The position numbers were made by a program, and so were the translations under genes. Shown in pieces: positions 13,440 through 45,262 of a stretch of DNA of 64,000 nucleotides. Numbering within the stretch: the first letter of the stretch is position 1; every line of letters starts with the position of its first letter. Below the pieces are notes generated by a model. That model worked only from the letters and a program-made list of their open reading frames with translations, made no database searches and was not told where the DNA came from. Origin of the DNA: Melioribacter roseus. GTDB taxonomy: Bacteria; Bacteroidota; Ignavibacteria; Ignavibacteriales; Melioribacteraceae. Location of the stretch: assembly GCA_020724265.1 (NCBI GenBank), contig DYHH01000013.1, positions 1 through 64,000 on the forward strand. Direction: 5' to 3'.

Positions 13440-13571
13440 AATTTTCTATTTTCTATTTATTATTTAATATTCGATTTCGCTAAAGCTCTTAAGCTACATT
13501 CACTAATTCGTTTTAATAATTATTTCCTGTTGATGATTATCAATAATCAATCGTCAATAATAAATCATAAA

Positions 13572-20064: not shown

Positions 20065-21408
20065 TTAAAACGCATGATCCACATACATCTGCATAAACAT
20101 TCCTTCTTTACCGAAAGCGGCATCGGCTCTTAGAATAAGATTATTCATAAAAATTCTGATACCACCGCCGGCGCTCCATTTCATATCGGTATGAAGTGTT
20201 TCTATATTCCATTCCGGCGCAACTCTGCCGAGTTCCGCAAAAACAGCAAGCTGAAGCCAGTGTACATTCAACTTTCTGGTTAACGACCAATAATCAAAAG
20301 GATTCCATGGGATTATTTGTCTATATTCGGCGCCGTAATAAATTGCCGCTCTATCGTTAAACCTTCCTTCGTAATAAGCACGCAGTCTATATCTTCCGCC
20401 GAGGTATGCCCCGGTATAAGGGGGCGGGCGGTGATATATTTTAATTAAATTCCCTTGAGGATCAACACCTTCAACATCATAACTATCCCAGGTTAATGTG
20501 TTAACCGTCCAGAAGTCGAGAGCTAAAACTTTCGGCAGAGAATTTTTTCTGCCGAGCATTTCGTTTAATGGAAGATACCAACGAAGATCAGTTTCAATTA
20601 CACTCCATGGCGCCATCGTACCGAACCATCCGAAGTCTCTTCTAAATGCGAACTTCTGAAGACTGCCTCGAGTTGGGTTGACATAGAAATCCGTATTCTC
20701 CCTTGTCAATGCAAATTCAATTCCGTTGGTTGCAAATGCAACTCTCTTTCTATAAAAAGGTTTTATATCAATGAATGTTCTACCACTTACAAAAGGGTTC
20801 CAATGAGTTCCGCCCATTTCCCCCGATTTTAAAATTCCATTTTCAAGATCGGGCATAAAATACACTTGATCTTTACCGTGACCGATAGGCAGGAGAAACC
20901 TGAATTTCATTTCATACCATTGATCGGAACCGCTTACTTCGATATAATCATTTTCATCTGATTCATTACTACCCGAACGCGGTTTATTGGAATCAACGTT
21001 AATATTAGCGGGATCATCTTTATAAACTTTCAACACTCCAAAGTATCCGCCGAGAATATCTGGTGCGATATATATTCTTGGATAAAACGGCAAGTAAAAT
21101 TCTCTAAATTGAATAAAGCCGTACTTAGTTCCGTTAGTACTAATCAACCCACCGGCATAAAGAGACATATTCTTCTGCGAAAGTCCTTGAATACCAACAA
21201 ACCCTCCGGCAGCCCAGCCGAATATTTCACTGTAAAGAGCAAACGGCAGCGCGGAGATTACAATTTCTTTTTTTTCTTCTTTTAGAGAATCTTCTTTTTC
21301 TACATTGTCTGTAATCCCATACGAAGAAAAGTAAGATTGGTTATCATAACTTTGCGCTGTAATGCTAATAGAGATAATTGTTGTTAATATTATGAGTAAG
21401 TATATCAT
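20065..21408 (-). CDS. Omp85/BamA-TamA-like outer membrane barrel protein
   Basis: A 447-residue exported protein with a signal peptide (MIYLLIILTTIISISITAQS) and alternating amphipathic strands ending in an aromatic residue (YVDHAF), as expected for a beta-barrel. RGSLQKFAFRRDFG and the LGGRYRLRAYYEGRF segment recall the RGF/RGY motif of the bacterial surface antigen (Omp85) domain. No POTRA domains are evident. The frame extends upstream to a TTG at 21450, but the ATG at 21408 starts the signal peptide. It follows the inositol phosphate synthase gene and may be the last gene of that long unit. Confidence 0.72.
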   Translation of the reverse strand: MIYLLIILTTIISISITAQSYDNQSYFSSYGITDNVEKEDSLKEEKKEIVISALPFALYSEIFGWAAGGFVGIQGLSQKNMSLYAGGLISTNGTKYGFIQFREFYLPFYPRIYIAPDILGGYFGVLKVYKDDPANINVDSNKPRSGSNESDENDYIEVSGSDQWYEMKFRFLLPIGHGKDQVYFMPDLENGILKSGEMGGTHWNPFVSGRTFIDIKPFYRKRVAFATNGIEFALTRENTDFYVNPTRGSLQKFAFRRDFGWFGTMAPWSVIETDLRWYLPLNEMLGRKNSLPKVLALDFWTVNTLTWDSYDVEGVDPQGNLIKIYHRPPPYTGAYLGGRYRLRAYYEGRFNDRAAIYYGAEYRQIIPWNPFDYWSLTRKLNVHWLQLAVFAELGRVAPEWNIETLHTDMKWSAGGGIRIFMNNLILRADAAFGKEGMFMQMYVDHAF

Positions 21409-21458
21409 ATCATATTTAGAATGAAAACTGCTCAAATCGAGACCGACCAATAGGTGAT

Positions 21459-22802
21459 CTAATCATAGCATTCATATTCTTCAACACTATGCTCCACGCC
21501 GTTTGTGTCAAGATGTGTAATCGGCATTTCGTTCATTAATTCTCTAAGTGTGTTTTTCAACTTCATTGATTGAATAAACAAATCGTGTTCGGGAACAATA
21601 TTTTCCGAATGCATAGGGCTCTTAAAGAACAACGACAACCATTCTTGTATTCCTTTCATATTGCTGCGTTGAGCAAGATCAGCAAAGAGGATAAGATCGA
21701 GCATAATCGGTGCTGCAAGAATCGAATCGCGGCAGAGGAAATTAATTTTCAATTCCATCGGGTAACCAAGCCAGCCGAAGATATCTATATTATCCCACCC
21801 TTCCTTATTATCGCCGCGCGGCGGATAATAATTAATACGAACTTTGTGATAGTAATTCGAATAAAGTTCTTTGTACAATTCCGGTTGAAGAATTGTGTTT
21901 AAAACAGAAAGTTTACTTTCTTCTTTAGTTTTGAATGAACCGGGGTCATCCAATACTTCGCCGTCTCTATTACCTAAAATGTTATCAGAAAACCAACCGT
22001 TTAGACCTAGCATCCTCATTTTCAACATTGGCGCAATTACTGTTTTGATCAACGTTTGCCCGGTTTTAAAATCTTTACCGGCAATCGGCACCTCTTTTTT
22101 GATCGCAAGATCAACTATCGCCGGAATATCCACACAAAGATTTGGCGAACCGTTAATAAACGGTGCACCTTCCGAAACTGCTGCATATGCATAAAGCATA
22201 CTTGGTGAAATATCCGGGTCGTTATTTTTCATACCCTCTTCAAATGCTTCGATAGTTTTATGAACATCTTTCTGCTCAATAAATATTTCAGTACTTCCTG
22301 CCCAAACTACAACTACCCTTTCGAGAGAATTCGCTTCTTTAAATAATTCAATATCGTCACGAAGTTGCTGCATTAGTTCATGCTTTGTTTTACCTTTCTT
22401 TACAAAATCTCCATTTAATCTTTTGACATAATTTTGATCGAAGACTGCTTTCATTGGTTTGATTGACTTCAACTCATCTGTGACATTGTTGAGATCGTTT
22501 TCATTCAATACTTTAGCATACTTTGCTGCATCGTAACAGTTTTCTTCTCTAATATCCCATCCACCGAAAACGAGATCATCAATTGAATTCAACGGAACAA
22601 AATCTTTAATACGCGGGAAATGATTATCGCTTCTTTTTCCAATCCGGACTGTTCCCATTTGTGTTAAAGAACCAATCGGCAGAGACAAACCTTTTCTAAC
22701 GGCAAAGATGCCGGCTAAAAAAGTAGTTGATACTGCTCCGTTTAATCCTACGATTAAAACGCCAAGCTTCCCACCGGGTTTTTGAATTTCATAATTTTTC
22801 AT
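21459..22802 (-). CDS. ino1: Inositol-3-phosphate synthase (MIPS)
   Basis: A 447-residue NAD-dependent enzyme converting glucose-6-phosphate to inositol-3-phosphate. The N-terminal Rossmann motif GVLIVGLNGAVSTTFLAGI near residues 14-32 and later GKDFKTGQT, LNGWFSDNILGNRDG and the KINFLCRDSILAAPIMLDL-like regions are typical. The length is in the range of bacterial and archaeal MIPS. Its place behind a HAD phosphatase, a flippase-like protein and a CDP-alcohol phosphatidyltransferase points to inositol lipid or inositol phosphodiester synthesis. Confidence 0.93.
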   Translation of the reverse strand: MKNYEIQKPGGKLGVLIVGLNGAVSTTFLAGIFAVRKGLSLPIGSLTQMGTVRIGKRSDNHFPRIKDFVPLNSIDDLVFGGWDIREENCYDAAKYAKVLNENDLNNVTDELKSIKPMKAVFDQNYVKRLNGDFVKKGKTKHELMQQLRDDIELFKEANSLERVVVVWAGSTEIFIEQKDVHKTIEAFEEGMKNNDPDISPSMLYAYAAVSEGAPFINGSPNLCVDIPAIVDLAIKKEVPIAGKDFKTGQTLIKTVIAPMLKMRMLGLNGWFSDNILGNRDGEVLDDPGSFKTKEESKLSVLNTILQPELYKELYSNYYHKVRINYYPPRGDNKEGWDNIDIFGWLGYPMELKINFLCRDSILAAPIMLDLILFADLAQRSNMKGIQEWLSLFFKSPMHSENIVPEHDLFIQSMKLKNTLRELMNEMPITHLDTNGVEHSVEEYECYD

Positions 22803-22836
22803 TTTTCTCTCCTTTAGACTATCTTGTTGAGGTTAA

Positions 22837-23541
22837 TTATATTTTTAAAATATTAGGTAACTCTTTAAGTGATTTGATTATTATATCTGCGCTGCTTGTA
22901 TCCGAAGGCTCTTTCCAGCTTTTACCTTTAAGCCAGACGGTGGTACAGCCTAATTGTTTTGCGGGAACAATATCGTTTTCGTATGAATCGCCGACAACCA
23001 TAGTTTCTTTAGCATTTGCTTCCAACCGGTAAAGCGCAAGTTGAAATATTTTTTTATTTGGTTTCCTTACCCCGACTAAAGTTGAATCAATTACTACTTT
23101 GAAGTATTTACGCAGATCAATTTCCTTTAATACTGTTTCAACATTGCCGTAATAATTCGAAACTAAACCGAGCCTGTATTCACTATCAAGCAAAGCAAGA
23201 GTTAGTTTCGTGATTTCAATATTGTCAAGAACGGTCTTCATACAATACCGGCTAATATTTTCAACAATCAAAAAATATATTTCCGAAAGAAGCTGCATAT
23301 TTTCAAAGTATTTTAGTTGATATGTAATTTGTGTTTCGTAAGTCTTGCTTAAGCTAAAATATGGTTTGATCACATCAGCAATATTTCTTTCAGAATAAAC
23401 GAAAGCATTTCGGAAATCTTCTTTCTCGACTGGTATTTGAAAATGTTGATATACCTTCCAGAATTTTTCACTCCAATGAATACCATCGGTATCGAGTGTG
23501 CCTCCGTAATCGAAGATTATATTTTTTATTTTTTTATTCAT
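22837..23541 (-). CDS. HAD-superfamily phosphatase
   Basis: A 234-residue HAD hydrolase. Motif I is IIFDYGGTLD, so the nucleophile Asp is present, but the usual second Asp (DxD) is Gly. Motif II is VSNYYG, the Lys is in VRKPNKKIF, and motif IV is VVGDSYENDIVPAKQLG. In an inositol cluster it could remove the phosphate from inositol phosphate or from a phosphatidylinositol-phosphate intermediate. This is inferred from context only. It overlaps the flippase-like gene by four bases and precedes ino1 by 34 bases. Confidence 0.8.
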   Translation of the reverse strand: MNKKIKNIIFDYGGTLDTDGIHWSEKFWKVYQHFQIPVEKEDFRNAFVYSERNIADVIKPYFSLSKTYETQITYQLKYFENMQLLSEIYFLIVENISRYCMKTVLDNIEITKLTLALLDSEYRLGLVSNYYGNVETVLKEIDLRKYFKVVIDSTLVGVRKPNKKIFQLALYRLEANAKETMVVGDSYENDIVPAKQLGCTTVWLKGKSWKEPSDTSSADIIIKSLKELPNILKI

Positions 23542-24551
23542 TTTATATCCGCATAACCGATTATTTCATTTTTAGCCGGTTTTGTTTTGCGTAATTGAAT
23601 TAACAACAATCCAACTAAAATCCAGAAGAACTCTCTAATTCTATTAATTAATCCGATATAAATTCCGATTGCCGAAGTGAACTTCAATAGCCCCATTATA
23701 AAATACAGGCTTCCTTCACGCACACCCAAATTCATAGGGATGAAAAAGAATAAGTTCATAAACAAAGAAGAAAAAGCATTTATATAAATTGCTTCTTGAA
23801 AAGATATTTCGATTCCAATTGCTCGGAGGATAAATATAAATTCGATCGAAGCAATGAAACGTGAAGTAACTTCAGTAAATAAAGAAGTGTAAAAATCTCT
23901 TTTACTATTTTTATAGAAATCAACTATTTGATGATCGATAACCTTGAGCGTATCTTCTTTTAATTTTATTTTTTCTACAAGTTTTGTTGTAAATGGAAGT
24001 TTCGGAATGATTTTAATAATGCTTTCAAAGATTCCGTTTTTATGGCGTGAATAGAAAAACCATACGCCCAGCAGTGCAATTATAAATCCCGCGCCGAAAA
24101 TTATTTGTATCTCTTTAGACAGAGTTAACGAGAATAGTACAAGTATAATTGCTGCTATCCAAAAGATAAATGACGAAAGAAAATGAAGCATAGAATAAAG
24201 TATAACAGAAGAAACAGCTTTTTGAGTACCGAGTTTATCTTTTAAAGCAAATACTTTATAAGGTTCGCCGCCAAGATTTACAACCGGCGTTATATAGTTA
24301 ATTGCAAATCCGCTTAGTAAAATTGAGAATATATCTATGAATGATACTTTATCCTTATGCGGCTTCAATATTATCTGCCAGGCGAACGTATTCAATAAAT
24401 AAACAAAGAACCAGACGCCAATTATCGGCACAATCCACCATCCGGTTTTTTCAACATTTGCAATAATATTTTCAAGACCGAATTCGTTTATAAGAAAAGC
24501 AAATATCAGCAGTCCGGCAATAAAGAATATTATTTTAATTTTTCTATTCAT
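23538..24551 (-). CDS. Flippase-like integral membrane protein (UPF0104/LPG-synthase TM family)
   Basis: A 337-residue polytopic membrane protein with about eight hydrophobic helices. It matches the lysylphosphatidylglycerol synthase transmembrane/AglD-like family in length. Its GGEPYKVFAL motif (near residues 88-97), GVREGSLYFI motif and NYITPVVNLGG region also fit. Members are thought to move lipids or act with lipid-linked glycosyl transfer. Here it lies between a phosphatidyltransferase and a phosphatase gene, suggesting it handles the product of that pathway. The substrate is unknown. Confidence 0.8.
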   Translation of the reverse strand: MNRKIKIIFFIAGLLIFAFLINEFGLENIIANVEKTGWWIVPIIGVWFFVYLLNTFAWQIILKPHKDKVSFIDIFSILLSGFAINYITPVVNLGGEPYKVFALKDKLGTQKAVSSVILYSMLHFLSSFIFWIAAIILVLFSLTLSKEIQIIFGAGFIIALLGVWFFYSRHKNGIFESIIKIIPKLPFTTKLVEKIKLKEDTLKVIDHQIVDFYKNSKRDFYTSLFTEVTSRFIASIEFIFILRAIGIEISFQEAIYINAFSSLFMNLFFFIPMNLGVREGSLYFIMGLLKFTSAIGIYIGLINRIREFFWILVGLLLIQLRKTKPAKNEIIGYADIK

Positions 24552-24563
24552 CGTTATCGCTTG

Positions 24564-25484
24564 TTAAAGAGCAATTAAGCGTTTATTAATTTCTTTATAA
24601 ATAACGTCGCTGTTTTTTTCATGTTTTAATATGACATATACAAATAAAATGTTCAGCAAAGTAAGTTCGAATAGGAAATAAAGCTCCGGCAGCTTTATAA
24701 ACAAAGTGAAGAATAAAAATATCATTCGTGTATTTGTTGTAAGAATATTGAAATATTTTATTAGCTGTTTGTTAAGCAAACGGTAAATGGATGATAATTG
24801 TGAGTGTGTACTAATATTCAACTTTTCTTTAGTTAGCCGATAAAGTTTGATAATGTTTTTCGAAAACAACTCCTGTTGAATAGTATAATTAAGATAAACT
24901 CTCATTAAGAACTTTTGCGGAAAGTTTTTCAGCCATCTTAATTCTTTGTAGTCTTCCTTTAGTTTAGTTGATTCATCTATTTCACCTATATTATTGCCGT
25001 GCACAAACATTAAGTAGTAATTACGATAATAATCCGCATAAGCAGATTGAAAAGAATGGCTGATTCCGGCAATTAAAATAAAGAGTAAGATAAAAGGATC
25101 GTACCCGTTGCTGATTAATCTGAAGTATAAATGAAAATAAATACTTACAAACCATAAATTTCCGCCAAAGCCGTCCAGGATTCTTCCGATTCTACTTTTG
25201 GTATTTGTAATTCTTGCCAGCTGACCATCGGCACTATCCATTGCATTGGCAAGAATTAAAAGTGCTATTCCGTAAAGGTTAAGAGTAATATCGCTGTAGT
25301 AAAAAAAATGTCCCGCTGCAACTCCGACAAATATGCTGATGATAGTAACTGCATTAGGAGTTAGCCCCACCGACTTAGATGCAAGCGCCATCACATAGCC
25401 TAAGGGTCTATAAAATATTCTATCAATTATTTCTTCAGTATCTTTTGCTTTATATGTTGATTTAATTGATTGCACTTGTACCAT
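24564..25484 (-). CDS. CDP-alcohol phosphatidyltransferase with an altered catalytic motif
   Basis: A 306-residue membrane enzyme of the CDP-alcohol phosphotransferase family. The signature DSADGQLAR, eight residues, Gly, RIL, Asp is present at about 83-104. The fourth conserved Asp, expected at position 108, is Gly (DGFGG). That residue is the presumed catalytic base, so the enzyme may use another base or act on an unusual substrate. The C-terminal 130 residues add helices beyond the core. With ino1 nearby, a phosphatidylinositol-phosphate or inositol-phosphodiester synthase is plausible. It lies 24 bases after the ATP-grasp gene. Confidence 0.82.
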   Translation of the reverse strand: MVQVQSIKSTYKAKDTEEIIDRIFYRPLGYVMALASKSVGLTPNAVTIISIFVGVAAGHFFYYSDITLNLYGIALLILANAMDSADGQLARITNTKSRIGRILDGFGGNLWFVSIYFHLYFRLISNGYDPFILLFILIAGISHSFQSAYADYYRNYYLMFVHGNNIGEIDESTKLKEDYKELRWLKNFPQKFLMRVYLNYTIQQELFSKNIIKLYRLTKEKLNISTHSQLSSIYRLLNKQLIKYFNILTTNTRMIFLFFTLFIKLPELYFLFELTLLNILFVYVILKHEKNSDVIYKEINKRLIAL

Positions 25485-25508
25485 AGCTACTTATCCTTCT
25501 TATTCAAG

Positions 25509-26360
25509 TTAAGCGATTACTTGTTCTTCAATTTTTTTATTTTCAGAAAACTCAACTGCTTTTTCATAAATAATTTTGGCGATAAACCTACTTGCTTCGT
25601 CTCGAAAATTTGCAAAGCTGGGCCAATCATTTACGTCTATTAATGTTATAGAGCCATCTTCAGAAATGATTGCGTCGCCACCGTATATAAATAAATTCAA
25701 TATTTGTGCGGATTTTTCAGCGAGTTCTTGTAAGCGAAGTTGATCGAATTTATAATGATTATTTCCGTTAACGTAATACCATCTAAAAAAGTTCGTATCT
25801 CTAACCGAATAAAATTTTATAACATCGCCGTAAATATGTTCTTGAAGCACAGTATCTTTTATTCCGCGATGAGCAAATTCATTCAATAAAAAATTCAGCT
25901 CTTCATCGCCGTACACAAGCGATACATCTTCTCTATGCACAGCGTGAACATCTCCGCGTTTAACCCATATTTTTCGTTCACCAACGTCATTTAATTTATA
26001 ATTCTCATTAGATTTAGTTGGTACAACTTTACTATTTGGAAAAGGTATTCCCGCCCTTTTTAATTTTTCAACCATATTAATGCGGTAACAGTTAATGCTT
26101 GCTAAAGATGAGTTAATTATAAACATACCGTTTTCTTCCAGCTTAACTAACTGTTTCAAAGCATCATATCCGCGTGCCATACTAAAGATTACTTCTTCAT
26201 CTATGTGTCCGGAGAGAATATCGGATTCTTCATAAAGTTTATAATCTGCTCCAAGCTTAATTAATTCTTGTGCGGTTTTAAGGATTATTAATCCATCGTT
26301 TGTAATTTGATTTGGAGAGTAATCGGATTTTCTTCTTATTCCGGCAAATTGTAATTTCAT
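25509..26360 (-). CDS. ATP-grasp protein in an inositol cluster (RimK/ITPK-like)
   Basis: A 283-residue soluble protein with ATP-grasp features. A Lys-bearing strand IWVKRGDV lies near 131-138, and QEHIYGDVIKFYSV near 182-195. A C-terminal metal site reads GGDAIISEDGSITLIDVND followed by WPSF. The DVND-WPSF ending resembles both RimK-type ligases and inositol tris/tetrakisphosphate kinases, which end in an Asp-x-Asn-x-x-Pro pattern. In this neighbourhood a kinase acting on an inositol phosphate or lipid headgroup is a reasonable hypothesis, but a peptide-type ligase remains possible. Confidence 0.7.
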   Translation of the reverse strand: MKLQFAGIRRKSDYSPNQITNDGLIILKTAQELIKLGADYKLYEESDILSGHIDEEVIFSMARGYDALKQLVKLEENGMFIINSSLASINCYRINMVEKLKRAGIPFPNSKVVPTKSNENYKLNDVGERKIWVKRGDVHAVHREDVSLVYGDEELNFLLNEFAHRGIKDTVLQEHIYGDVIKFYSVRDTNFFRWYYVNGNNHYKFDQLRLQELAEKSAQILNLFIYGGDAIISEDGSITLIDVNDWPSFANFRDEASRFIAKIIYEKAVEFSENKKIEEQVIA

Positions 26361-26377
26361 TTAGTCATCTCTAAATT

Positions 26378-27103
26378 TTATTTGTTATTGGTTAAAAACT
26401 CTTCAGCTGTTTTAATATCAGCTGCGTGGTCAACATCAATAATTTTTGAAAATGGAAAAGCAAACAAATTGTGATTGTAATTAATAAGATAGCGTAAGAA
26501 ATTCCTGAGTCTGCTAACATTTTCATTTAATGCATTGTTAATTTCATCGCGAAAATCTTTCTTGAAGAAATACATACCGCCTGTAACGAATTCGCTGTTA
26601 TTATCTTTATCACCGAAGCTAAGTATCTTTGAATCTTCATCAATGTTTACAAAAAGAGGTTTTTCGTCATCAATAAAATCAGTTACGGCTAAGACCGCAT
26701 CGGCGTTTTTATAATTCATACTATACTTCAAGAATTCTGTAAATTCTTCCTCTCTAAAAACCGAGTCGGTTGTTGTAAGAAGGAATGGGGGTTCTAAAAA
26801 TCTACTTACCTGATGAAAACTGTGTAAAGAACTCGGTGTTGATTTAACTATTAAATTGAACGGAAGTAATGAATTGTTATTTAGTAAATATTTTTCAAGT
26901 TCGGGCGATTCTTCATTAATAATACATGCTATTGAATCAACTCCGTTTTTAAGAGCTATATCAATTATTCTCTGTATCAATGGAATGCCATTAATTTCGA
27001 CAAGAGGTTTTGGAATATTAATTCCTTCTTCTTTTAATCTAAGTCCTTCACCAGCCGCAATAATTCCTAAGTTAAAATCCAGCTTTTCAGTTTGAGCACT
27101 CAT
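26378..27103 (-). CDS. MobA-like sugar/inositol-phosphate nucleotidyltransferase
   Basis: A 241-residue enzyme of the NTP-transferase (GT-A) fold. The start GIIAAGEGLRL and the KPLVEINGIPLIQR block are the nucleotide-binding signature. A central TTTDSVF holds the metal Asp, and FPFSKIIDVDHAADI ends the domain. The family includes CTP:inositol-1-phosphate cytidylyltransferase, which makes CDP-inositol. With MIPS and a CDP-alcohol transferase in the same run, this is the most attractive reading, but base specificity cannot be seen. Its ATG overlaps the stop of the upstream Omp85 gene by one base (TAATG). Confidence 0.8.
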   Translation of the reverse strand: MSAQTEKLDFNLGIIAAGEGLRLKEEGINIPKPLVEINGIPLIQRIIDIALKNGVDSIACIINEESPELEKYLLNNNSLLPFNLIVKSTPSSLHSFHQVSRFLEPPFLLTTTDSVFREEEFTEFLKYSMNYKNADAVLAVTDFIDDEKPLFVNIDEDSKILSFGDKDNNSEFVTGGMYFFKKDFRDEINNALNENVSRLRNFLRYLINYNHNLFAFPFSKIIDVDHAADIKTAEEFLTNNK

Positions 27104-28191: not shown

Positions 28192-28203
28192 GTGCAGTCT
28201 CTC

Positions 28204-29625: not shown

Positions 29626-29638
29626 TTCATTTCCCGTT

Positions 29639-30835: not shown

Positions 30836-31917
30836 TTATTATACCTGCTGTTATTAATTACAAATTCAGCATAAATCGGATAATGATCGGAAAGAATTAG
30901 ATCAAGTTTTTTGTAGTAAACTGGAATAACTTCATTTTTTGCGAAAAGATAATCGATGCGCAAAATCGGGAAAGGCGGACTGAAAGTATTGCCTATTAAA
31001 GATTTTGAAATCGTAAAAGCATCGACGGCTGTTTCATTTAATTTTCTTACTGTTTTGGCAGTCGAGTGTGCATTTAAGTCGCCTCCGAAGATTATATGCC
31101 CATCAATATTATTAATGTAATCAATAAAAAAATCGATTTCCTTTTGATGAATATCGATTAAGTATCTACCCCAACGGATAGATTCTTTTAGACTATTATC
31201 CTTTGGTCTTCCGCCAAGTAATCTAATTGAAATAATATTGACCGGTGTGTTTTTCACATCAACAACAGCGTGAAGAAAGGCGCGATGCGGATTGCGATGA
31301 AGCGTATCAAGATCATTACTTCTACTTAATGATGCTTGATAACTCGGAAGCTCAATTTCTTTATAATTTAGTATAGGATACTTCGACAAAATTGCCGAAG
31401 ACCCCGGTCGTCCCGTTACTACATTATATGGATAAGCTATAGAATCAAAAATTGCTGTTTGTTTTTCGTCAAGTACATTTTCAGTAATTAAAACAACATC
31501 AGTATCTATTTCCTTTATTTTATTAATTAAGTTTTCGAAACCCTTTGCATAGTATTGAACATTAATTGCTGCTACTGAAATATCTGATTTATAAAATTGA
31601 GAGTGAGTATTTGATTTAACTGAAGCAATTAGATTTTCGTCACCAAATTGTGAAAAGTAAAACAAAAATATTATTATGAAAACCGATGCTGATTTTTTGT
31701 AACCAAGAAAAAGCCGAATTATAAATACAGGGATAACAGCTATCGTGATTAGTAATGAAGGAATATAATCTAACCCATAAAAAATGGAGGTATCACTAAA
31801 TATATCAAGTTGATCAAAAGCGTTTAGCACCATTGCTGTCATAGCAATTACTGCCGGCAATTTTATAAATAGACCAATGCTTTTTTTAATAATATTTAAT
31901 ATTCTTTTTGTATTCAT
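30832..31917 (-). CDS. Membrane-tethered endonuclease/exonuclease/phosphatase (EEP) family protein
   Basis: A 361-residue protein with about three N-terminal transmembrane helices and a C-terminal EEP domain. The active-site blocks are ISVAAINVQYY, DVVLITENV (metal Glu), FGGDLNAH, RIDYLF and LSDHYPIYAEF (catalytic Asp-His). The family includes DNases, sphingomyelinases and inositol-polyphosphate 5-phosphatases. In this cluster a lipid or inositol phosphatase role is plausible. The frame begins at a TTG at 31929, but the ATG at 31917 is a more usual start. It overlaps the kinase gene by four bases. Confidence 0.85.
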   Translation of the reverse strand: MNTKRILNIIKKSIGLFIKLPAVIAMTAMVLNAFDQLDIFSDTSIFYGLDYIPSLLITIAVIPVFIIRLFLGYKKSASVFIIIFLFYFSQFGDENLIASVKSNTHSQFYKSDISVAAINVQYYAKGFENLINKIKEIDTDVVLITENVLDEKQTAIFDSIAYPYNVVTGRPGSSAILSKYPILNYKEIELPSYQASLSRSNDLDTLHRNPHRAFLHAVVDVKNTPVNIISIRLLGGRPKDNSLKESIRWGRYLIDIHQKEIDFFIDYINNIDGHIIFGGDLNAHSTAKTVRKLNETAVDAFTISKSLIGNTFSPPFPILRIDYLFAKNEVIPVYYKKLDLILSDHYPIYAEFVINNSRYNK

Positions 31918-31925
31918 CTTTGCTA

Positions 31926-33161
31926 TCAAAAACTGTATTTGATCTTTGTGTATATCATATCGTTTTTATCGAATCTTCCGAATTGTCCTTCATCACCGAA
32001 GAATAAATTTGCTCCGAGTTGAATTTGAAAGCCGTCAATAAAATCATAAGTTACTTTTGGACGAACAAGTGCGTCACCGTTATCCAAACCGATATATGAA
32101 AACAATTCTACATTAAGAGTCTCGCGCAAGAAATCCATTGATGCAAGAAATGTCATTGTGTTTTCAAATTCATCGTTAAGTAAATAATCGTTGTAATCAA
32201 GTATTGCTTGCTGAATAAATTGAGTGCTTAGTTTAAGATCACCAATGCTGTAATCAATACCGAGCAAATAGTGAATGTAATCTTTCTCTTCTGTTCCGTC
32301 TGAGTATTTCGGATTAGTAGATTGAAAATGTTTTCCGTTGTAGTATGCCCCTTCACCTCTAAGAACAACTGGACCAATTGTAGTACTGAAGCTTCCGCCT
32401 AATGTTGCCAAGCGATGATGTTCGGGTTTTAGTATAACCGAATCAACAATACCGTTTGCCGGGTTTAATATTTTTTCGGAATGAAAAGTCGGGTCATCAT
32501 CCCAGGAGTATCCCGCCATTATTTCAAAATCTATTTCAGAAGATAGAAGTGAATATTTAGCAAATATTTCACTGTTGCTTAATTTATTTTTCACATCCGA
32601 ATTCGAGTAATCAATACTGTAAGGAAGCGGATAGTTTGGCTTTATACTCCAAATAGAATTTTCGTCAGGCATTTGAGTGGGAGTAAAAACCGGAATCCAT
32701 ACAAGTTCGAAAGTACTGTTGCCAGAGTAGTAATTGAATTTAAGTGAAGTTACTCCGACACGAATTTCACTGAATTCCGGCAAAAGAAATTCTCTCATAT
32801 CTTTTGGAGAAACAATATCGGTTATGAATACTCCGTCTCCTTTACCCCAAACTATCTGCTGTTTTCCTATCCGTATATCGAAAGAATCAAAATATAAATC
32901 CATATATGCTTGTCTAAATCCGAGCTCTAATTCATCATCGGAATAATGATAGAGAAAAGGATTTACTTTGAAATAAACATCACCCCGGCTATGCTCGAAG
33001 TTCAGATCAAAAGTATTCTGTATAATTGAATAATCACTTTCGCCTGTAGTTAGTGCACCGAGATAAGTTCTCGCATAACCGCTTAAAAATAAATCTTGTG
33101 CGCCGATCATTGGTGTCATCATAATAAACATCAATGTTGTTTTGATTAACTTTGTGACCAT
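31926..33161 (-). CDS. DUF1302-like outer membrane barrel protein
   Basis: A 411-residue exported beta-barrel with a signal peptide of about 21 residues. The segment RIGKQQIVWGKGDGVFITDIVSPKD near 95-120 matches the pattern of DUF1302/alginate-porin-like proteins that accompany MMPL/RND exporters and LolA-like proteins. The C-terminus ends in an aromatic (YTKIKYSF). It probably forms the outer membrane part of the export route encoded upstream. Its ATG overlaps the stop of the LolA-like gene (TAATG), so the pair is coupled. Confidence 0.75.
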   Translation of the reverse strand: MVTKLIKTTLMFIMMTPMIGAQDLFLSGYARTYLGALTTGESDYSIIQNTFDLNFEHSRGDVYFKVNPFLYHYSDDELELGFRQAYMDLYFDSFDIRIGKQQIVWGKGDGVFITDIVSPKDMREFLLPEFSEIRVGVTSLKFNYYSGNSTFELVWIPVFTPTQMPDENSIWSIKPNYPLPYSIDYSNSDVKNKLSNSEIFAKYSLLSSEIDFEIMAGYSWDDDPTFHSEKILNPANGIVDSVILKPEHHRLATLGGSFSTTIGPVVLRGEGAYYNGKHFQSTNPKYSDGTEEKDYIHYLLGIDYSIGDLKLSTQFIQQAILDYNDYLLNDEFENTMTFLASMDFLRETLNVELFSYIGLDNGDALVRPKVTYDFIDGFQIQLGANLFFGDEGQFGRFDKNDMIYTKIKYSF

Positions 33162-33943
33162 TATAAACCTCTCTTCATCATTCTTTCGGTAAACATACCG
33201 TCATCAATACCGATATTGATTTGAACATTTTTCAGGTTCATTATTGTTCTGTGATCTTTTTGAACATTGTGCATCTCCGAATGAAGAATAACCCAGTAAC
33301 CGTCTATCTTATCATATTTTTCAACCGATAAAGTTTTCAAGTGATCACCGTCTTCGTCATAGAATTCTTTCTTCATTCCAATCCATTTATCTTTGATTAC
33401 CCAGGTAACAGTACGCGAATACATATATCCTTTTTCTTTAGGAATGCTTTCGACAACGTAGCAGTCTTCCCCGTTAAGTTTTTCTTCGCGAAGTAGTTTG
33501 TGAGTATCTTCTGAAGGATGTCGATCACCAAGATCATCATACGTAAAGTCGGAACCCATAAAGTAATCGCTTTTACTGTCGCTTGAAATTCGTTTTACTT
33601 TCTTAAGAGCGGGAAGATAAATCCATTGATCGTCGTCTCTTCCGGCTTGATCATAACTCCAATTCATAAAAGAAGTGTTTCGTACATCCGCCGGGGAGAG
33701 AAAGAACATTATACTTTTTTCTTCTTTCCCGTAGTCTTTGCTGAATTGTTTTATCTCTCTAACTCTTTCACTGCCTCGTGAATTGATTAATGTCATAGTT
33801 AGATCAGATGTAGCGTCATTACCGGTTTCACGGTAATACACATTCTCAATTATTTGCTGACCTGTTAATTTTTCTTGTGCTTGAGACTCAAAGCCGATTA
33901 CAGTTACCAGCATTGTCATCAATAATATTTTTACGAGTTTCAT
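33161..33943 (-). CDS. LolA-like periplasmic lipoprotein/lipid-sorting protein
   Basis: A 260-residue exported protein with a signal peptide of about 22 residues. It resembles the outer membrane lipoprotein-sorting (LolA_like, PF17131-type) family. The diagnostic stretches are QWIYLPALKKVKRI, FMGSDFTYDDL and YSRTVTWVIKDKW. Such proteins often sit with an RND/MMPL exporter and a DUF1302/1329 barrel, and the set is thought to shuttle hydrophobic cargo. It overlaps the YtfJ-like gene by four bases (ATGA). Confidence 0.85.
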   Translation of the reverse strand: MKLVKILLMTMLVTVIGFESQAQEKLTGQQIIENVYYRETGNDATSDLTMTLINSRGSERVREIKQFSKDYGKEEKSIMFFLSPADVRNTSFMNWSYDQAGRDDDQWIYLPALKKVKRISSDSKSDYFMGSDFTYDDLGDRHPSEDTHKLLREEKLNGEDCYVVESIPKEKGYMYSRTVTWVIKDKWIGMKKEFYDEDGDHLKTLSVEKYDKIDGYWVILHSEMHNVQKDHRTIMNLKNVQINIGIDDGMFTERMMKRGL

Positions 33944-34500
33944 TTCGATTCTCCTTTATTTATTAGTAATTCAATTTGATTTATCAACTTGCTTTCAATT
34001 TCTTTCGTCAATTCATCGGTATGAAGAAAAACTACTTCACCTTTTCCGTTTATCAATAAAATGTTCGGGTTATCTTCAGATAGTTTCCATTCTTTCAGAA
34101 GTATTTCTTTTTTATCGAGCACATAATTTTTTGTAGTATCCTCCTTTGCTCTTCCTTTAACCTTTCCCACGATTACAGAATTCGGTATCCAGGTAGCTTT
34201 TGTGTTAATGATTATGGTGGTGGATAATTCTTCAACGGGATAATTATTCTTATCAATCTTTTCAAGTAAAGGTTCTACTACCTTTTGTTGACTCGGCGAT
34301 ACGTAATAAATTAAGTTTATCTTATTTGTAAGATTAGTGTTCGTCCAATCGCTTCCGTCAATGTTGCCTCCGTTTGTTCCGCTTAAGATTATATTCGGAA
34401 GATTTTTTTGAAGTTCAACTTGAGCTATTGTACTTGCTGTAAAAAGTATCAACGTAACTGCTAGCAAAATCCATTTATTTTTAATTACTCTTATAAACAT
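33940..34500 (-). CDS. YtfJ-family thioredoxin-like periplasmic protein
   Basis: A 186-residue protein with an N-terminal signal or anchor (about 10-28) and a thioredoxin-like core. The pattern of LIYYVSPSQQK, TTIIINTKATWIPNSV, NYVLDKKEILLKEWKL and ILLINGKGEVVFLH corresponds to the YtfJ family. The CxxC redox pair of true thioredoxins is absent, so an oxidoreductase function is doubtful. It precedes the LolA-like gene and follows the RND gene after a 116-base gap that holds a hairpin. Confidence 0.75.
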   Translation of the reverse strand: MFIRVIKNKWILLAVTLILFTASTIAQVELQKNLPNIILSGTNGGNIDGSDWTNTNLTNKINLIYYVSPSQQKVVEPLLEKIDKNNYPVEELSTTIIINTKATWIPNSVIVGKVKGRAKEDTTKNYVLDKKEILLKEWKLSEDNPNILLINGKGEVVFLHTDELTKEIESKLINQIELLINKGESK

Positions 34501-34537
34501 ATTTTTACCTTTTTATTTATAGTTAATCCTTCTTGTA

Positions 34538-34604
34538 CGGTATTCCCTCTGTGCATTTTGTGTAACAAGAGGGAGCATTACACTTTAGACACAGAGGAAT
34601 ACCG
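34538..34604. repeat. Inverted repeat in the gap between the RND exporter and YtfJ-like genes
   Basis: The arms CGGTATTCCCTCTGTG (34538-34553) and CACAGAGGAATACCG (34590-34604) pair with one unpaired base. An alternative inner pairing of CCCTCT with AGAGGG is also possible. The arms resemble the CAGAGG-rich hairpin repeats seen between genes in many environmental bacteria. It may attenuate transcription within the long run. Confidence 0.7.
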
Positions 34605-34616
34605 AGATCATTCTTT

Positions 34617-36932
34617 TTAATTATTACCATCTTTATGTTTTGCGCTATTTTTCTTTTTGAAATAGACATTAGATTTATATAGAACCAAGAACATAATAGT
34701 TACCGTACCGAGGAAGCTTGTAAACATATTGAGCGATACCAATGCACCGAGCGACCTGTTCGGAGGAAATACGGAAAACAACAGAACTAAAAATCCGGCT
34801 ATTACTACCATTGCATTGAAACTTATTGCTCTTCCGGAATGATGCATTGTTTCTTTTATTGTTAACGATTTATCGCCGGACTCCAAAGCATATATTTTAT
34901 ATCTTTCAATAAAGTGAACTGCGTAATCTATACCTATGCCGACCGCGATACTTGAGATTAATGCCGTTGTTGTACTTAATGGAATATCAAGCAAGCCCAT
35001 TAATCCAAAAGAGATCGCTGCCGTAATTACGATTGGAATTGAACCAATAAAACCGATAGATAATTTTCTGAACATTAATGAAAGTAGAATGATTATAAGC
35101 AATAGAGATATGAGAAGACTTTTGATCTGTCCTTCTAGAATCAAATCGCTGAAAATTAACGCTTTATAACCCGAGCCTGCATAATTTAGATTTACTCCCA
35201 GATCAGAAAATTCACTGCGGTATTTTTCAAGTATTTCGATTGCGCGATTTATTTCTTTTGAGTTATCACTTTTCAGTTGAACATTTACGTTTGCCTGCTT
35301 GTAATCGTAATCAACAACCTTCCAAAGATTTTCGGGATCGCCGGACATTTCATACAGTAGAAGGTACTGTGCAATTAAATCATGAGAGCCGGGAATTATA
35401 TTATAAGCTTCATCATCGGCGTGCATTACCTTGTTCATTCGTTTTAGGTAATCCGCAAGCGAAAATGAATTACCTACTACATCAATTGATTCAACATCTG
35501 ACTGCATTTTATCAATTAATCGCTGCACATCAGGGTCTTTAAATTTGTCATATTCTTCCGAGTCAAGAATAACATTAATTGTGTTGGTACCGCCAAAATG
35601 TTGATTGATAAACGCATCGGTGAGAACTATATCACTGTCCTTTTCGAACTTGTCTAAAAAGCTTGAGTTGATCCATACTTCATTAATTCCGATAATTGAG
35701 GCAACAATAATTATAGCCGTTACCGAGATAACAAGAGCCTTAAACTTAACCGCACCATCTGCAAATTTATATGCGAGCTCGCCGCTCTCTTCTTTCGATT
35801 TTTCTTTATGAGCTTTTCTTCTGGGCAGACCGAATACAATTATTGCGGCGGGAATTAATACTAAAGAAAATACCATTGCCATCATCACACCGAAAGCAGT
35901 AAACACACCGAAATATTTTATCGGATAAACATCGGATGTAAGAAGTGATATAAATCCTATCGCAGTAGTTACAGACGTCATAGCTATCGGTTTCCACATT
36001 CCTTTAATCATATCTTTCACTGCATCAATTTTATTAGCGTTGGGATGTTCAAATAAGAATAGATCGAGGTGACTGTAAAGATGTATGCCGTCCGCAACTC
36101 CAATTGCAATAAGCATTACAGGAATCATGGTTGAGACGGAATAAATAGGAATGCCAAATACTGCCATCAAACCGAAAGCCCAAATTGTACTGAATAACAC
36201 GACAAGTAAAGTGAATATTGTGTTTCGAACGCTTCTCATAACGAAATAAAGAACTAATATGATAACTGCTATTACAATCGGTACCATAATCATCATATCT
36301 TTTGGTGCGAGATAAGCGAGTGTTCCTTCCACAATCGGAACTCCGGCAACGTGCAGTATTTCGGGTCCTTCGTATGATTTTGCTAAATCCAATATTTCGT
36401 GATAGAATTCAATCGTAAAAACATCGTCGGCAATTTCGGCAACAATAAGTGTAATCTCTTCATTTTCGGAAACTAATCTTTTATATACCATTTCATTGTT
36501 TCTAACATCATCTCGTAATTTCTGAAGAGCGTCTTCTGTTTTGGGTATAGATGAATAGAAATCTTTTACATCTAGACCCTCTTCCGTACCGACAATATTT
36601 TCGGCAGTATAAAGAGAAGTAACGTCATCTTTGTGAATCTCCTTCATTTGCTGAAGGGCTCGCGTAAGATCTTTTATTTTCTTTAAAGTAGCCGGGTTAT
36701 AGATTCCTCCTTTATTTTCAACCGCGATTAGAATTCCGTCTTTAATATTGAACATATCTTCCGCTTGATCGCTGAAAATGAAAGCCGGGTGATCATACGG
36801 CATATATTCATCAAGGTCTGTTTCCATTCGGGAATTTTCTACCATTCTATCAAAGAAGAATGCTGTTACGATGAGAATCATAACAAGAGCTGCAGCCGAC
36901 CAGATTAGGTGTTTGTTTTTAGGACATTTCAT
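34617..36932 (-). CDS. MMPL/RND-family transporter
   Basis: A 771-residue exporter with the two-fold RND layout. TM1 lies near 12-30, a periplasmic domain near 35-205, five helices near 210-370, TM7 near 395-415, a second periplasmic domain, and five more helices. The paired motifs GVADGIHLYSHLD and GIGIDYAVHFIERYK hold the Asp residues of the proton relay region. MMPL/HpnN-type members export lipids or hydrophobic molecules, which fits a LolA-like partner and barrel next door. An operator-like palindrome lies 16 bases upstream of the start. Confidence 0.9.
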   Translation of the reverse strand: MKCPKNKHLIWSAAALVMILIVTAFFFDRMVENSRMETDLDEYMPYDHPAFIFSDQAEDMFNIKDGILIAVENKGGIYNPATLKKIKDLTRALQQMKEIHKDDVTSLYTAENIVGTEEGLDVKDFYSSIPKTEDALQKLRDDVRNNEMVYKRLVSENEEITLIVAEIADDVFTIEFYHEILDLAKSYEGPEILHVAGVPIVEGTLAYLAPKDMMIMVPIVIAVIILVLYFVMRSVRNTIFTLLVVLFSTIWAFGLMAVFGIPIYSVSTMIPVMLIAIGVADGIHLYSHLDLFLFEHPNANKIDAVKDMIKGMWKPIAMTSVTTAIGFISLLTSDVYPIKYFGVFTAFGVMMAMVFSLVLIPAAIIVFGLPRRKAHKEKSKEESGELAYKFADGAVKFKALVISVTAIIIVASIIGINEVWINSSFLDKFEKDSDIVLTDAFINQHFGGTNTINVILDSEEYDKFKDPDVQRLIDKMQSDVESIDVVGNSFSLADYLKRMNKVMHADDEAYNIIPGSHDLIAQYLLLYEMSGDPENLWKVVDYDYKQANVNVQLKSDNSKEINRAIEILEKYRSEFSDLGVNLNYAGSGYKALIFSDLILEGQIKSLLISLLLIIILLSLMFRKLSIGFIGSIPIVITAAISFGLMGLLDIPLSTTTALISSIAVGIGIDYAVHFIERYKIYALESGDKSLTIKETMHHSGRAISFNAMVVIAGFLVLLFSVFPPNRSLGALVSLNMFTSFLGTVTIMFLVLYKSNVYFKKKNSAKHKDGNN

Positions 36933-36944
36933 AACTTACTCGCT

Positions 36945-37532
36945 TTAGTTAACATTAACTAACTTATTGATTAAAAATTTCTTCCCCTTCTTTGTAAGGG
37001 CGCCGTTTAGTATGATCTTCAGTAATTGATCTAACTCGCCAGCAATGGGTTTCGCATTTCTTTTTGTTACTTCGGTAATTGCGCCGTAGATCAGCTTTAG
37101 GTATAGTTCGATGGGATAATCGTTCAATACTCCTTTTTTAATTCCGCCTGTTATTAAAAGTCGCAGCAACGGAATTATATTATATTTCCGGAACCGTGCA
37201 ACCTTTATCCATATTTTAGGATGAGTTCTCTTCAGTTCTGCAAGCGATATATCGTCAAATACTTTTAAGTTCTCTTTGACAGCATCAAAGATCGTATAAA
37301 ACTTTTCAACGAAAGGCGATTCATTTGAAACAACATAAATTACCTTGTAATACGCTTCACTCAGCATACTCATAATTGTTATTTCGATGAGTTTATGTTT
37401 GCTTCCGAATTCTTTGTAAATAGTTTTTTTACTTACATTCAGATCGGCAGCAATATCATTTATAGAAATAGAAGAAAATCCTTCTTTCTGAAATCTCTTA
37501 ACTAAATATTTTTGTGTCTTCTCTTTAATCAT
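36945..37532 (-). CDS. TetR/AcrR-family regulator, gene-proximal to the RND exporter
   Basis: A 195-residue repressor. The N-terminal helix-turn-helix lies near 18-50 (FSSISINDIAADLNVSKKTIYKEFGSK). A helical ligand domain follows. The gene ends 12 bases before the RND start, and its own 3-prime codons contain the 36948-36963 palindrome. A second copy of this palindrome lies 15 bases upstream of its ATG, so it probably represses itself and the exporter. A GTG at 37538 is possible, but the ATG at 37532 is preferred. Confidence 0.88.
   Translation of the reverse strand: MIKEKTQKYLVKRFQKEGFSSISINDIAADLNVSKKTIYKEFGSKHKLIEITIMSMLSEAYYKVIYVVSNESPFVEKFYTIFDAVKENLKVFDDISLAELKRTHPKIWIKVARFRKYNIIPLLRLLITGGIKKGVLNDYPIELYLKLIYGAITEVTKRNAKPIAGELDQLLKIILNGALTKKGKKFLINKLVNVN
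36948..36963. promoter_or_regulatory. Predicted TetR operator upstream of the RND exporter
   Basis: The sequence GTTAACATTAACTAAC (GTTA-N8-TAAC) is 16 bases upstream of the RND start codon and inside the last codons of the TetR gene. The same core occurs at 37547 and 38189. Confidence 0.6.
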
Positions 37533-37546
37533 AACCACACGAGTAA

Positions 37547-37562
37547 GTTAACACTAACTAAC
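37547..37562. promoter_or_regulatory. Predicted TetR operator upstream of the first TetR gene
   Basis: The sequence GTTAACACTAACTAAC lies 15 bases upstream of the ATG at 37532. It matches the copies at 36948 and 38189, allowing one or two base changes. Confidence 0.6.
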
Positions 37563-37580
37563 TTTGTTGTTCAAAAAAAA

Positions 37581-38165
37581 TTAATTTGTTATCATTTCTT
37601 TAATTGCACTAAATATACTATCCCCTTTTTTGGCAAGACTAAAACTAAATCCGCCCAGTCTCCATTCCAGAACCGTCAATCTAATGAATCCTAAAATCAT
37701 TGTAATTATATCACTTGTTTCAATATCTTTAAATTCATTTGCAGCTTTACCTTCTTCTACGATTGTCATCAGAAGACTTTTGCGATATTTTATTATTCTA
37801 ATAAGTTTCTGTTTTAATAAAGCACTTTGGCTGAAGATATCTTCCGAGAAAAGTACAGATGTCATTTCTTTGTTTTTTTGAAGAAAATCAAAATGAAATT
37901 GAATAAATCTCCTCAGTTTCTCGGTTGCCGTATCGCCGCCGGCTAAATACTCTTCAAGCAGATGATCGAATTCGCCGATGCGGGATAAGATTCCCAAAAT
38001 TATATCTTCTTTATTTAGGAAATGTCTGTAAATAGCAGGTTCGCTAATCTTAACCTTACCGGCTAATTCACGTATGGATAAGGATTCATATCCCCCTTCG
38101 TGAATAATATTTATTGCTTCGTCAATAATTGTTTTCTGTCTTTCTTCCGTTGTCAAGCGTGCCAT
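37581..38165 (-). CDS. TetR/AcrR-family regulator, head of the long minus-strand run
   Basis: A 194-residue repressor with an N-terminal helix-turn-helix (about 8-52, YESLSIRELAGKVKISEPAIYRHFLNK). The C-terminal helical domain would bind a small, probably lipophilic, inducer. It differs in sequence from the second TetR encoded next, so the two are not a recent duplicate. Its promoter carries the same operator core, suggesting that one or both proteins control the whole set. Confidence 0.88.
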   Translation of the reverse strand: MARLTTEERQKTIIDEAINIIHEGGYESLSIRELAGKVKISEPAIYRHFLNKEDIILGILSRIGEFDHLLEEYLAGGDTATEKLRRFIQFHFDFLQKNKEMTSVLFSEDIFSQSALLKQKLIRIIKYRKSLLMTIVEEGKAANEFKDIETSDIITMILGFIRLTVLEWRLGGFSFSLAKKGDSIFSAIKEMITN

Positions 38166-38204: not shown

Positions 38205-38295
38205 AAATATAATGTAATATGCCGGTCTTGTCAAGAAAAAAATAAATTAGTTTCTAATGGGGTCACTTCTTAATGACTCTTGAATTCTTAAAGCG

Positions 38296-43777: not shown

Positions 43778-43779
43778 AA

Positions 43780-44571: not shown

Positions 44572-44583
44572 GAGAGGTTTGTT

Positions 44584-45261: not shown

Positions 45262-45262
45262 A

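Follow-up and report, generated by a model that had tools for sequence, protein, structure and literature searches.

A seventeen-gene minus-strand run of Melioribacter roseus places an inositol-lipid-type gene core beside an AmeABCD-like exporter

Results

Gene content and layout of the run

The window analysed here is a stretch of 64,000 nucleotides of Melioribacter roseus (positions 1 to 64,000 of contig DYHH01000013.1, assembly GCA_020724265.1), and our subject is a run of genes within it that is best explained as two co-directional modules, an inositol-lipid core and an exporter. An earlier sequence-only reading had described seventeen genes running in one direction with overlaps or short gaps, and the map of open reading frames (ORFs) of the window bears this out: 17 long ORFs, all on the minus strand, span 20065-38165, with an intergenic spacing of -4 to 42 nt throughout and a sole exception of 116 nt between the RND transporter gene and the YtfJ gene. 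When the strands of the 58 selected ORFs of the window (at least 100 amino acids) were shuffled, a strand run of 17 or more was obtained in 39 of 20000 shuffles. The families named in that reading, including MIPS, the NTP transferase, the CDP-alcohol transferase, the exporter and the barrels, were matched by Pfam or NCBIfam models, and two TetR regulators, a YtfJ protein, a PAS-histidine kinase and a DUF3943 protein come in addition to those it listed.

In the order of transcription, the run opens with two TetR regulators, TetR a (37581..38165; TetR_C_4 by Pfam, FadR/YsiA-like, 81 bits against NF053878 with a cut-off of 200) and TetR b (36945..37538; Pfam). They are followed by an MMPL/HAE3 RND transporter (34617..36932; PF03176, E 7.6e-43), a YtfJ-like periplasmic protein (33940..34500; PF09695), a LolA-like/DUF1329 periplasmic carrier (33161..33943; PF17131, 3e-68; PF07044, 3.4e-12) and a DUF1302 outer-membrane barrel (31926..33161; PF06980, 2.1e-12). 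A membrane-anchored endonuclease/exonuclease/phosphatase (EEP) protein with a TTG start and two transmembrane-like segments comes next (30832..31929; PF03372, 8.5e-14), with N123, E150, D284-x-N286 and S347-D348-H349 kept in 4/4 aligned sequences, then a soluble PAS-HisKA-HATPase sensor kinase (29639..30835; Pfam), which has no transmembrane-like segment and no adjoining response regulator, and a DUF3943 protein (28204..29625; PF13084, 3.9e-38). The second half comprises Omp85-family barrel a, also with a TTG start (27103..28191; PF01103, 2.1e-14), an NTP transferase resembling inositol-phosphate cytidylyltransferases (26378..27103; PF00483), an ATP-grasp protein (25509..26360), a CDP-alcohol phosphotransferase (24564..25484; PF01066, 2.2e-9), a flippase-like membrane protein of the LPG_synthase_TM/HpnL type (23538..24551; PF03706, 1.3e-34; TIGR03476, 112 bits, cut-off 195.65), a HAD protein (22837..23541; PF13419, 4.5e-17; AlphaFold2 pLDDT 96.7), the myo-inositol-phosphate synthase MIPS (21459..22802; PF07994, 1.4e-109) and Omp85-family barrel b, with a TTG start as listed (20065..21450; PF01103, 2.2e-8). 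A search of viral contigs recovered no relative.

The best promoter-like site of the region, TTGACA-17-TATATT at 38206..38234 on the minus strand, lies just 5' of TetR a and shows 11 of 12 consensus bases; a second site also reaches 11, and the number of such sites across the region is at chance level. The 116-nt gap (34501..34616, minus strand) is predicted to fold into a hairpin of -32.9 kcal/mol, where shuffled sequences average -16.7 (z -5.4), and its part at 34508-34600 is single copy in the genome. Because this strong hairpin lies in the gap, a continuous single transcript is not proven.

The core matches a predicted inositol-lipid cluster

In a search of PDB sequences, MIPS matched the solved inositol-3-phosphate synthase 7nwr at E 4.2e-180, and the NTP transferase aligned over residues 14-231 of 241 with 4jd0 (E 6.4e-7), described as the inositol-1-phosphate cytidylyltransferase of T. 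maritima (PMC12275187). The MIPS homologue adjoins the NTP transferase, CDP-alcohol transferase and HAD genes, with a lysylphosphatidylglycerol-synthase-like protein nearby, and this is the gene content of the putative alternative inositol lipid cluster which Heaver et al. (2022) describe in B. vulgatus and Prevotella, with the predicted CDP-inositol route common to both (PMC9246714). The likeness is one of gene content, and the B. vulgatus genes BVU_RS13095, BVU_RS13105 and BVU_RS13115 were matched by description only. According to the same paper, B. vulgatus and P. veroralis produce phosphoinositol dihydroceramide (PI-DHC) although they lack the BT_1522/23/25 genes, and Sphingobacterium spiritivorum is reported to have ceramide phosphoinositol (PMC9246714); a 2023 review still terms the alternative CDP-inositol route predicted and not fully characterised (PMC10191378). 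Since it matches the alternative cluster of 2022, the core is not new; it is a variant of an inositol-lipid cluster that is predicted, not proven. It differs in that an ATP-grasp protein, not named in the account that Heaver et al. give of the cluster (PMC9246714), is recognised here as a near-constant member, in that the window adds exporter, Omp85, EEP and kinase genes, and in that the relatives of the window add MlaE-MlaF-MlaD, an aminotransferase and a dehydrogenase.

The BT_1522-1526 cluster of B. thetaiotaomicron, which serves the phosphatidylinositol phosphate (PIP) route, also holds MIPS and a CDP-alcohol transferase (PMC9246714). Unlike it, the run has no AUR1-like or PgpA-like gene among its Pfam matches, and its CDP-alcohol transferase scores 25.9 bits against the BT1523 model NF052561 (cut-off 350), which does not fit a BT_1523-type PIP route. 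A CDP-inositol pathway of inositol phospholipids, with CDP-inositol as head-group donor, was reportedly set out by Jorge et al. in 2015 and is likened to the core by description only.

Related loci were collected by scanning genome contigs with an alignment of the CDP-alcohol transferase, which gave at least 537 stretches; the best 80 of these were analysed, and the locus counts among them are lower bounds, as contig ends cut loci and the ORF picker misses genes. These 80 include loci of Ignavibacteria, Sphingobacterium, Dyadobacter, Runella, Muribaculaceae, Prevotellaceae and others, and gene sets similar to the core are also seen in loci of Bacteroidaceae, Tannerellaceae and Prevotellaceae. 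By ORF map, the NTP transferase is found in 64 of the 80, the ATP-grasp protein in 71, HAD in 69, MIPS in 56 and LPG_synthase_TM in 40; NTP transferase, ATP-grasp, CDP-alcohol transferase and HAD occur jointly in 56, and with MIPS in 44. Within the order, 31 of 164 genomes carry the CDP-alcohol transferase family, at 34 loci; in a sample of 395 genomes from across the phylum, 18 have it. An apparent fusion of this transferase in L094, whose N-terminal 255 residues match no reference protein and look out of frame, was set aside as a likely artefact.

Substrate assignment, missing aspartates and lipid acceptor

Several findings weigh against a straightforward inositol-lipid pathway. For the NTP transferase, three PDB sequences of sugar-pathway, non-inositol enzymes (6-deoxy-heptose pathway, glucose-1-phosphate thymidylyltransferase) slightly outscore 4jd0, over a shorter stretch, and the sugar-1-phosphate model of NCBIfam (7.8e-13) comes barely ahead of the inositol-phosphate cytidylyltransferase model (NF041135, 1.1e-12). 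Arg, Lys and Asp residues of the sort found here as R22, K32 and D113 are conserved in nucleotidyltransferases generally. They are kept in 88/89, 89/89 and 89/89 rows, respectively, some contigs being counted twice under two locus ids in these rows as in the 101 HAD and 72 MIPS rows. Their equation with R16/K26/D112 of the numbering given in PMC12275187 was rejected, as Arg and Lys fit a constant offset and Asp does not; because of this misfit and of their generality, the three residues were not used as evidence for inositol.

The CDP-alcohol transferase carries D1, D2, G1, AR, G2 and D3 of the motif D1xxD2G1xxAR...G2xxxD3xxxD4, with Gly108 at the D4 position followed by Asn109. Among the 78 family members with at least 40% identity (from 80 ORFs, of which two were set aside, one at 21% that lacks the motif and one at 32% that has D4), the D4 position is Gly in 74, Thr in 2 and Asp in 2, and the following residue is Asp in 57, Asn in 19, Glu in 1 and Ser in 1; Asn109 is invariant in 16 aligned transferases, all from this order. 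D4 is considered the likely catalytic base, and even a D-to-N change nearly abolishes PIP synthase activity (PMC4634129). The Asp one residue past D4, present in most Bacteroidota members, might replace the catalytic base there; the transferase of the window has no acidic residue at either position, and a standard alcohol-acceptor reaction is therefore not assured. A distant group of CDP-alcohol transferases in the same genomes keeps D4 in 9/9; this group (L040-L048, 27-34% identity) appears in L041 with a class I/II aminotransferase, an NTP transferase and a LysE-type gene, a grouping that is, judging from its gene content, a separate CDP-alcohol pathway.

HAD phosphatases carry an Asp two residues after the nucleophile (motif I DxD). 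In the HAD family of the core Asp11 is kept, and the residue two positions on is Gly in 101/101 (motif I DxGGT, Gly13 in the window), while the Lys and acidic motifs are present: Lys160, Asp185 and Asp190 are found in 101/101, as is His22, and Trp23 in 100/101. Simple phosphatase action is therefore not assured either. A fold search returned ordinary C1-cap HADs, dehalogenases and phosphatases alike, and a control motif scan, which found no HAD outside the family (both rows so labelled were the HAD of the window itself), was uninformative. A CDP-alcohol transferase-HAD fusion is described in P. veroralis (PMC9246714). The residue losses are conserved, which is not the picture of decay, and they predict non-standard chemistry; neither enzyme should work by the textbook mechanism.

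As to the acceptor, the best PDB match of the gene resembling serine palmitoyltransferase (SPT) in this genome is the Sphingobacterium SPT, at 396 bits against 290 for the next enzyme, a non-SPT. It scores 490 bits against a curated cut-off of 640, and SPT-like genes lie below this cut-off in all 164 genomes of the order, which also counts against the pathway as drawn; because of this a ceramide acceptor is not certain. Co-occurrence with SPT was discarded as a ceramide test, since SPT-like genes are found at E 1e-90 or better in 149/164 genomes and none exceeds 640 bits. A field lipidome paper lists Ignavibacter as one of the taxa with a potential for sphingolipids (PMC10667739). Both ceramide and diacylglycerol are candidate acceptors.

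The ATP-grasp protein, a putative kinase or ligase

The ATP-grasp protein has no Pfam match at E 0.01, yet the label given to it from sequence is borne out by its AlphaFold2 model (pLDDT 94.6, pTM 0.90) and by a fold search. Of the 34 core loci of the order, 31 have the gene. In L104 and L110, two loci of Bacteroidota, it is fused behind the NTP transferase, which suggests that the two proteins act together. Fold and profile searches fit ligases and kinases alike. We lean slightly, from sequence and model comparisons, to a putative inositol/cyclitol kinase feeding the cytidylyltransferase, with a ligase as serious rival.

That the protein would instead be a carboxylate-amine ligase adding an amino acid to an inositol or amino-inositol head group has, in our estimate, somewhat less than an even chance. 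NCBIfam matches are limited to the RimK family (3.7e-8) and LysX (2.5e-6) and reach neither cut-off; the Pfam RimK model matches 6/50 members (best 2.4e-4) and the inositol kinase model PF05770 5/50, weakly (best E 0.03); and the top scores of a DALI-like comparison belong to CPS, LysX and RimK, with no ITPK in its top 50. A profile search of PDB sequences is also headed by a ligase, PsnB (4.9e-6), but the entries that follow are ITPKs (7.3e-6, 1.3e-5, and 3e-4 to 3.8e-4 for four sequences of the same human protein) before ArgX at 1e-3, so that six of the eight sequences below E 0.01 are inositol phosphate kinases, from three proteins. In Foldseek, maize ITPK1 structures take ranks 5, 8 and 10, after ArgX and D-Ala ligases, and the scores of the window protein against RimK-like ligase models stay under their cut-offs (TIGR00768, 33.1 versus 143.4 bits; PF08443, 13.6 versus 21 bits). 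Moreover, loci without an aminotransferase retain the ATP-grasp gene, and a kinase would suit its fusion with the NTP transferase. When the ATP-grasp and EEP proteins were each used as a single query against PDB sequences, no match came up at E 1 and 0.1.

An order-wide form with a Mla transporter and an aminotransferase-dehydrogenase pair

The 34 core loci of the order (33 fetched stretches and the window, several of them cut by contig ends) were mapped at 28% identity and E 1e-8, with labels assigned by Pfam for members of L023, L024 and L025 and by homology for the other loci. Of these loci, 27/34 have a class III aminotransferase together with a GFO/IDH/MocA oxidoreductase, and 7/34 have neither; in L084 the ORF map gave the dehydrogenase without the aminotransferase, and tblastn recovers both. 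MlaE is found in 20/34, MlaF in 21/34 and MlaD in 22/34. Among the 25 loci with NTP transferase and HAD in one run (L025 falls outside these, the run rule having split it at a 273-bp gap), 17 carry Mla, aminotransferase, oxidoreductase and MIPS, in the order NTP-MlaE-MlaF-MlaD-ATP-grasp-aminotransferase-CDP-OH-oxidoreductase-LPG_TM-HAD-MIPS. Gene-order conservation in relatives, which the sequence-only reading had made a test of its proposal, thus holds for the core, whereas the full 17-gene order is not kept. In L024 the Mla genes match PF02405 (1.4e-67), ABC_tran (1.7e-35) and PF02470 (3e-16), and the L023 and L027 copies are homologous. Homologues of Mla/MCE lipid transporters therefore lie within the cores of relatives, as expected for a lipid product, whereas the run of the window has no MlaE-MlaF-MlaD. 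A gene for a PagL-like lipid A deacylase stands just before the NTP transferase gene in L024 (8997-9539, by Pfam) and in L025 (9764-10309, 72% identical); for L027 and its matches the same label proved wrong or unsupported and was not used.

Aminocyclitols are known to be made by oxidising a cyclitol and then aminating it. The best NCBIfam model for the oxidoreductase is inositol 2-dehydrogenase (75 bits, cut-off 355), and the protein carries the GxGxIA, EKP and DxxxH signatures; the aminotransferase has the lysine context of pyridoxal phosphate enzymes. Given this route to aminocyclitols, the simplest reading of the pair is an amino-inositol head group, and the gene set may point to a lipid with amino-inositol that has an MCE transporter of its own.

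The genome of the window itself contains a second, paralogous cluster on contig C51 (L023, 4000-23999), which is a full copy of the amino form. The core genes that it shares with the window are 49-72% identical, and it also has MlaE, MlaF and MlaD, a second ATP-grasp gene beside the first, an aminotransferase, an inositol-dehydrogenase-like gene and an EEP gene; its MlaE is one of three in the genome. Upstream of this cluster are genes for a radical SAM protein and a guanylate-cyclase-domain protein. A tree of 50 rows (the window, 30 order loci, 16 chosen related loci and 3 outgroup rows) groups the window copy, with support 100/96, with G002, G105 and G128, all of which lack the aminotransferase and the dehydrogenase, and this plain group nests among loci which have the pair, 13 Bacteroidota rows forming a separate clade. 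Twelve locus ids were left out of the tree as repeats or short, so that G001:C420, G021:C94 and G113:C189, all of the amino form, are absent from it. From this placement the window is read as a plain branch; two of the three nearest relatives of its copy still have Mla.

From these data a lipid system of the Ignavibacteriales, absent from the literature searched, may be sketched. Inositol would be oxidised by the inositol dehydrogenase, aminated by the class III aminotransferase, phosphorylated by the ATP-grasp protein as a kinase and activated to a CDP-aminocyclitol, which would be put on a lipid moved by a dedicated MCE transporter, with a non-canonical CDP-alcohol transferase/HAD pair which might act on an unusual acceptor or complete each other's active sites; the run of the window would be a plain-inositol branch that lost the amino genes and stands beside an HAE3 exporter, with the amino branch on C51. 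We put this forward tentatively, as a possibility that is more likely wrong than right.

The exporter is a separate cassette

The exporter module consists of TetR-TetR-HAE3 RND-YtfJ-LolA-DUF1302. AmeABCD of Castellaniella defragrans is described as an HAE3 efflux system for monoterpenes, and the module shares with it an HAE3 RND protein (AmeD), a DUF1302 outer-membrane protein (AmeA) and a DUF1329/LolA periplasmic protein (AmeB) (PMC6394551). The likeness is one of domains, the RND protein scoring 233 bits against TIGR00921 with a cut-off of 351.9, and the module differs from AmeABCD in having YtfJ, two TetR regulators and adjoining lipid genes. No AmeC (COG4447) counterpart was seen, as the stretch from RND to DUF1302 holds only YtfJ and the LolA-like protein as periplasmic genes; an extra gene of about 310 amino acids between LolA and DUF1302 in L157 and L159 was tried as AmeC and dropped, with no Pfam family. 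In G001, of the same genus, L152 (1-8000) has YtfJ, LolA (as two ORFs), DUF1302 and EEP at 87-97% identity, with relatives of DUF3943 and PagL upstream of YtfJ in place of the RND gene.

The sequence-only reading had the whole run make, modify and export an inositol lipid. Read as one system, with delivery to the outer membrane through RND-LolA-DUF1302 and the Omp85 barrels, the run would owe its coherence to 17 co-directional, tightly packed genes; the same joining recurs, with gene differences, in G002 (L024) and G005 (L025), and an HAE3 system of like make-up exports hydrophobic compounds (PMC6394551). The distribution of the exporter weighs against this. DUF1302 relatives at E 1e-60 occur in 24/164 genomes of the order and the core in 31/164, both together in 8 and adjacent in 3, namely the window and the two just named. 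About 4.5 genomes with both would be expected if they were independent (31 x 24 / 164, relatedness not corrected). In G001, G021, G023, G029 and G160 the two lie on different contigs; some of these assemblies are fragmented, so adjacency is possible in part of these cases. Counted by locus, the exporter is in 3/34 core loci by ORF map (2/34 under the run rule, which split L025), and no MMPL, LolA or DUF1302 relative was found in the best 80 of the at least 537 related stretches. In two genomes the cassette TetR-TetR-RND-YtfJ-LolA-DUF1302 occurs by itself, at 51-86% identity: in G026, which has no core match and where DUF3943 follows, and in G023, where it is on a contig separate from the core. 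To this are added the MlaE gene beside the core in 20 loci, with no Mla in the run of the window, and the 116-nt gap with its strong hairpin inside the exporter part.

Since the cassette stands alone in relatives, the exporter has a life of its own, and we rejected it as an obligate part of an inositol system in general; the joining of the core with an HAE3 exporter is a local arrangement. A single system is thus unlikely. The head-group part of the earlier claim, borne by genes in conserved order, stands, while the case for export of the lipid by the whole run is weak; use of the exporter for an inositol lipid in this lineage is possible, though unproven.

Elsewhere in the window, genes for a multicopper oxidase-cytochrome c fusion, an FGE-sulfatase-like protein, SCO1 and ScdA/hemerythrin lie in a row at 42236-46006, and nitrate-reductase-like molybdopterin and iron-sulfur subunits are encoded at 11886-17180.

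Discussion

Taken together, these results make it probable that the run consists of two modules, a core for an inositol phospholipid of the CDP-inositol route and an AmeABCD-like exporter recruited alongside it in a few lineages. In the core, where a head-group pathway is well supported by the predicted functions of the genes, MIPS would convert glucose-6-phosphate to inositol phosphate, the NTP transferase would convert this to CDP-inositol, and the membrane CDP-alcohol transferase would move phosphoinositol to a lipid acceptor, ceramide or diacylglycerol; the LPG_synthase_TM protein may flip the product. The ATP-grasp protein would most likely act beside the cytidylyltransferase as an inositol/cyclitol kinase, failing which it would be a ligase that modifies the head group. 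HAE3 RND, the LolA-like protein, DUF1302 and YtfJ, under TetR control, would form an AmeABCD-like envelope exporter of amphiphiles. What the data show directly is the gene content, the conserved order and residues and the phylogeny; all substrates, the acceptor, the direction of transport and a single transcript are inferred from these.

Besides the single system discussed above, we considered that the core might make a soluble solute of the di-inositol-phosphate type and no lipid. The NTP and CDP-alcohol transferases do resemble the two halves of the archaeal bifunctional enzyme for cytidylyl transfer to inositol phosphate and di-inositol phosphate synthesis (NF041135, 47.6 and 22 bits), but they are two proteins and their scores are far under its cut-off of 580; the core comes with MlaE, MlaF, MlaD and a flippase-like protein, and B. 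vulgatus and P. veroralis, credited with such a cluster by Heaver et al., make PI-DHC (PMC9246714). This makes a soluble product very unlikely. Least likely of all is that the core supplies a surface polysaccharide or capsule with inositol. NTP transferases of this kind serving sugar pathways and the minor inositol reported in the B. thetaiotaomicron capsule (PMC9246714) might speak for this, but no glycosyltransferase or capsule-export family is among the Pfam matches of the 17 genes.

Inositol lipids are rare in bacteria, and the clusters described here offer testable partners for the predicted CDP-inositol route: an ATP-grasp enzyme that is almost always present, a transporter for lipids and two enzymes for which the lack of an aspartate predicts unusual catalysis. 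Of greater interest is what lies outside 20065-38165, the order-wide cluster with its MCE transporter and aminotransferase-dehydrogenase pair, and the conserved loss of two textbook catalytic residues. A thin literature search (aminoinositol; aminocyclitol and inosamine lipids, judged by title) found no report of an amino-inositol lipid. If it is true that the aminotransferase-dehydrogenase pair acts on inositol, these bacteria would make such a lipid.

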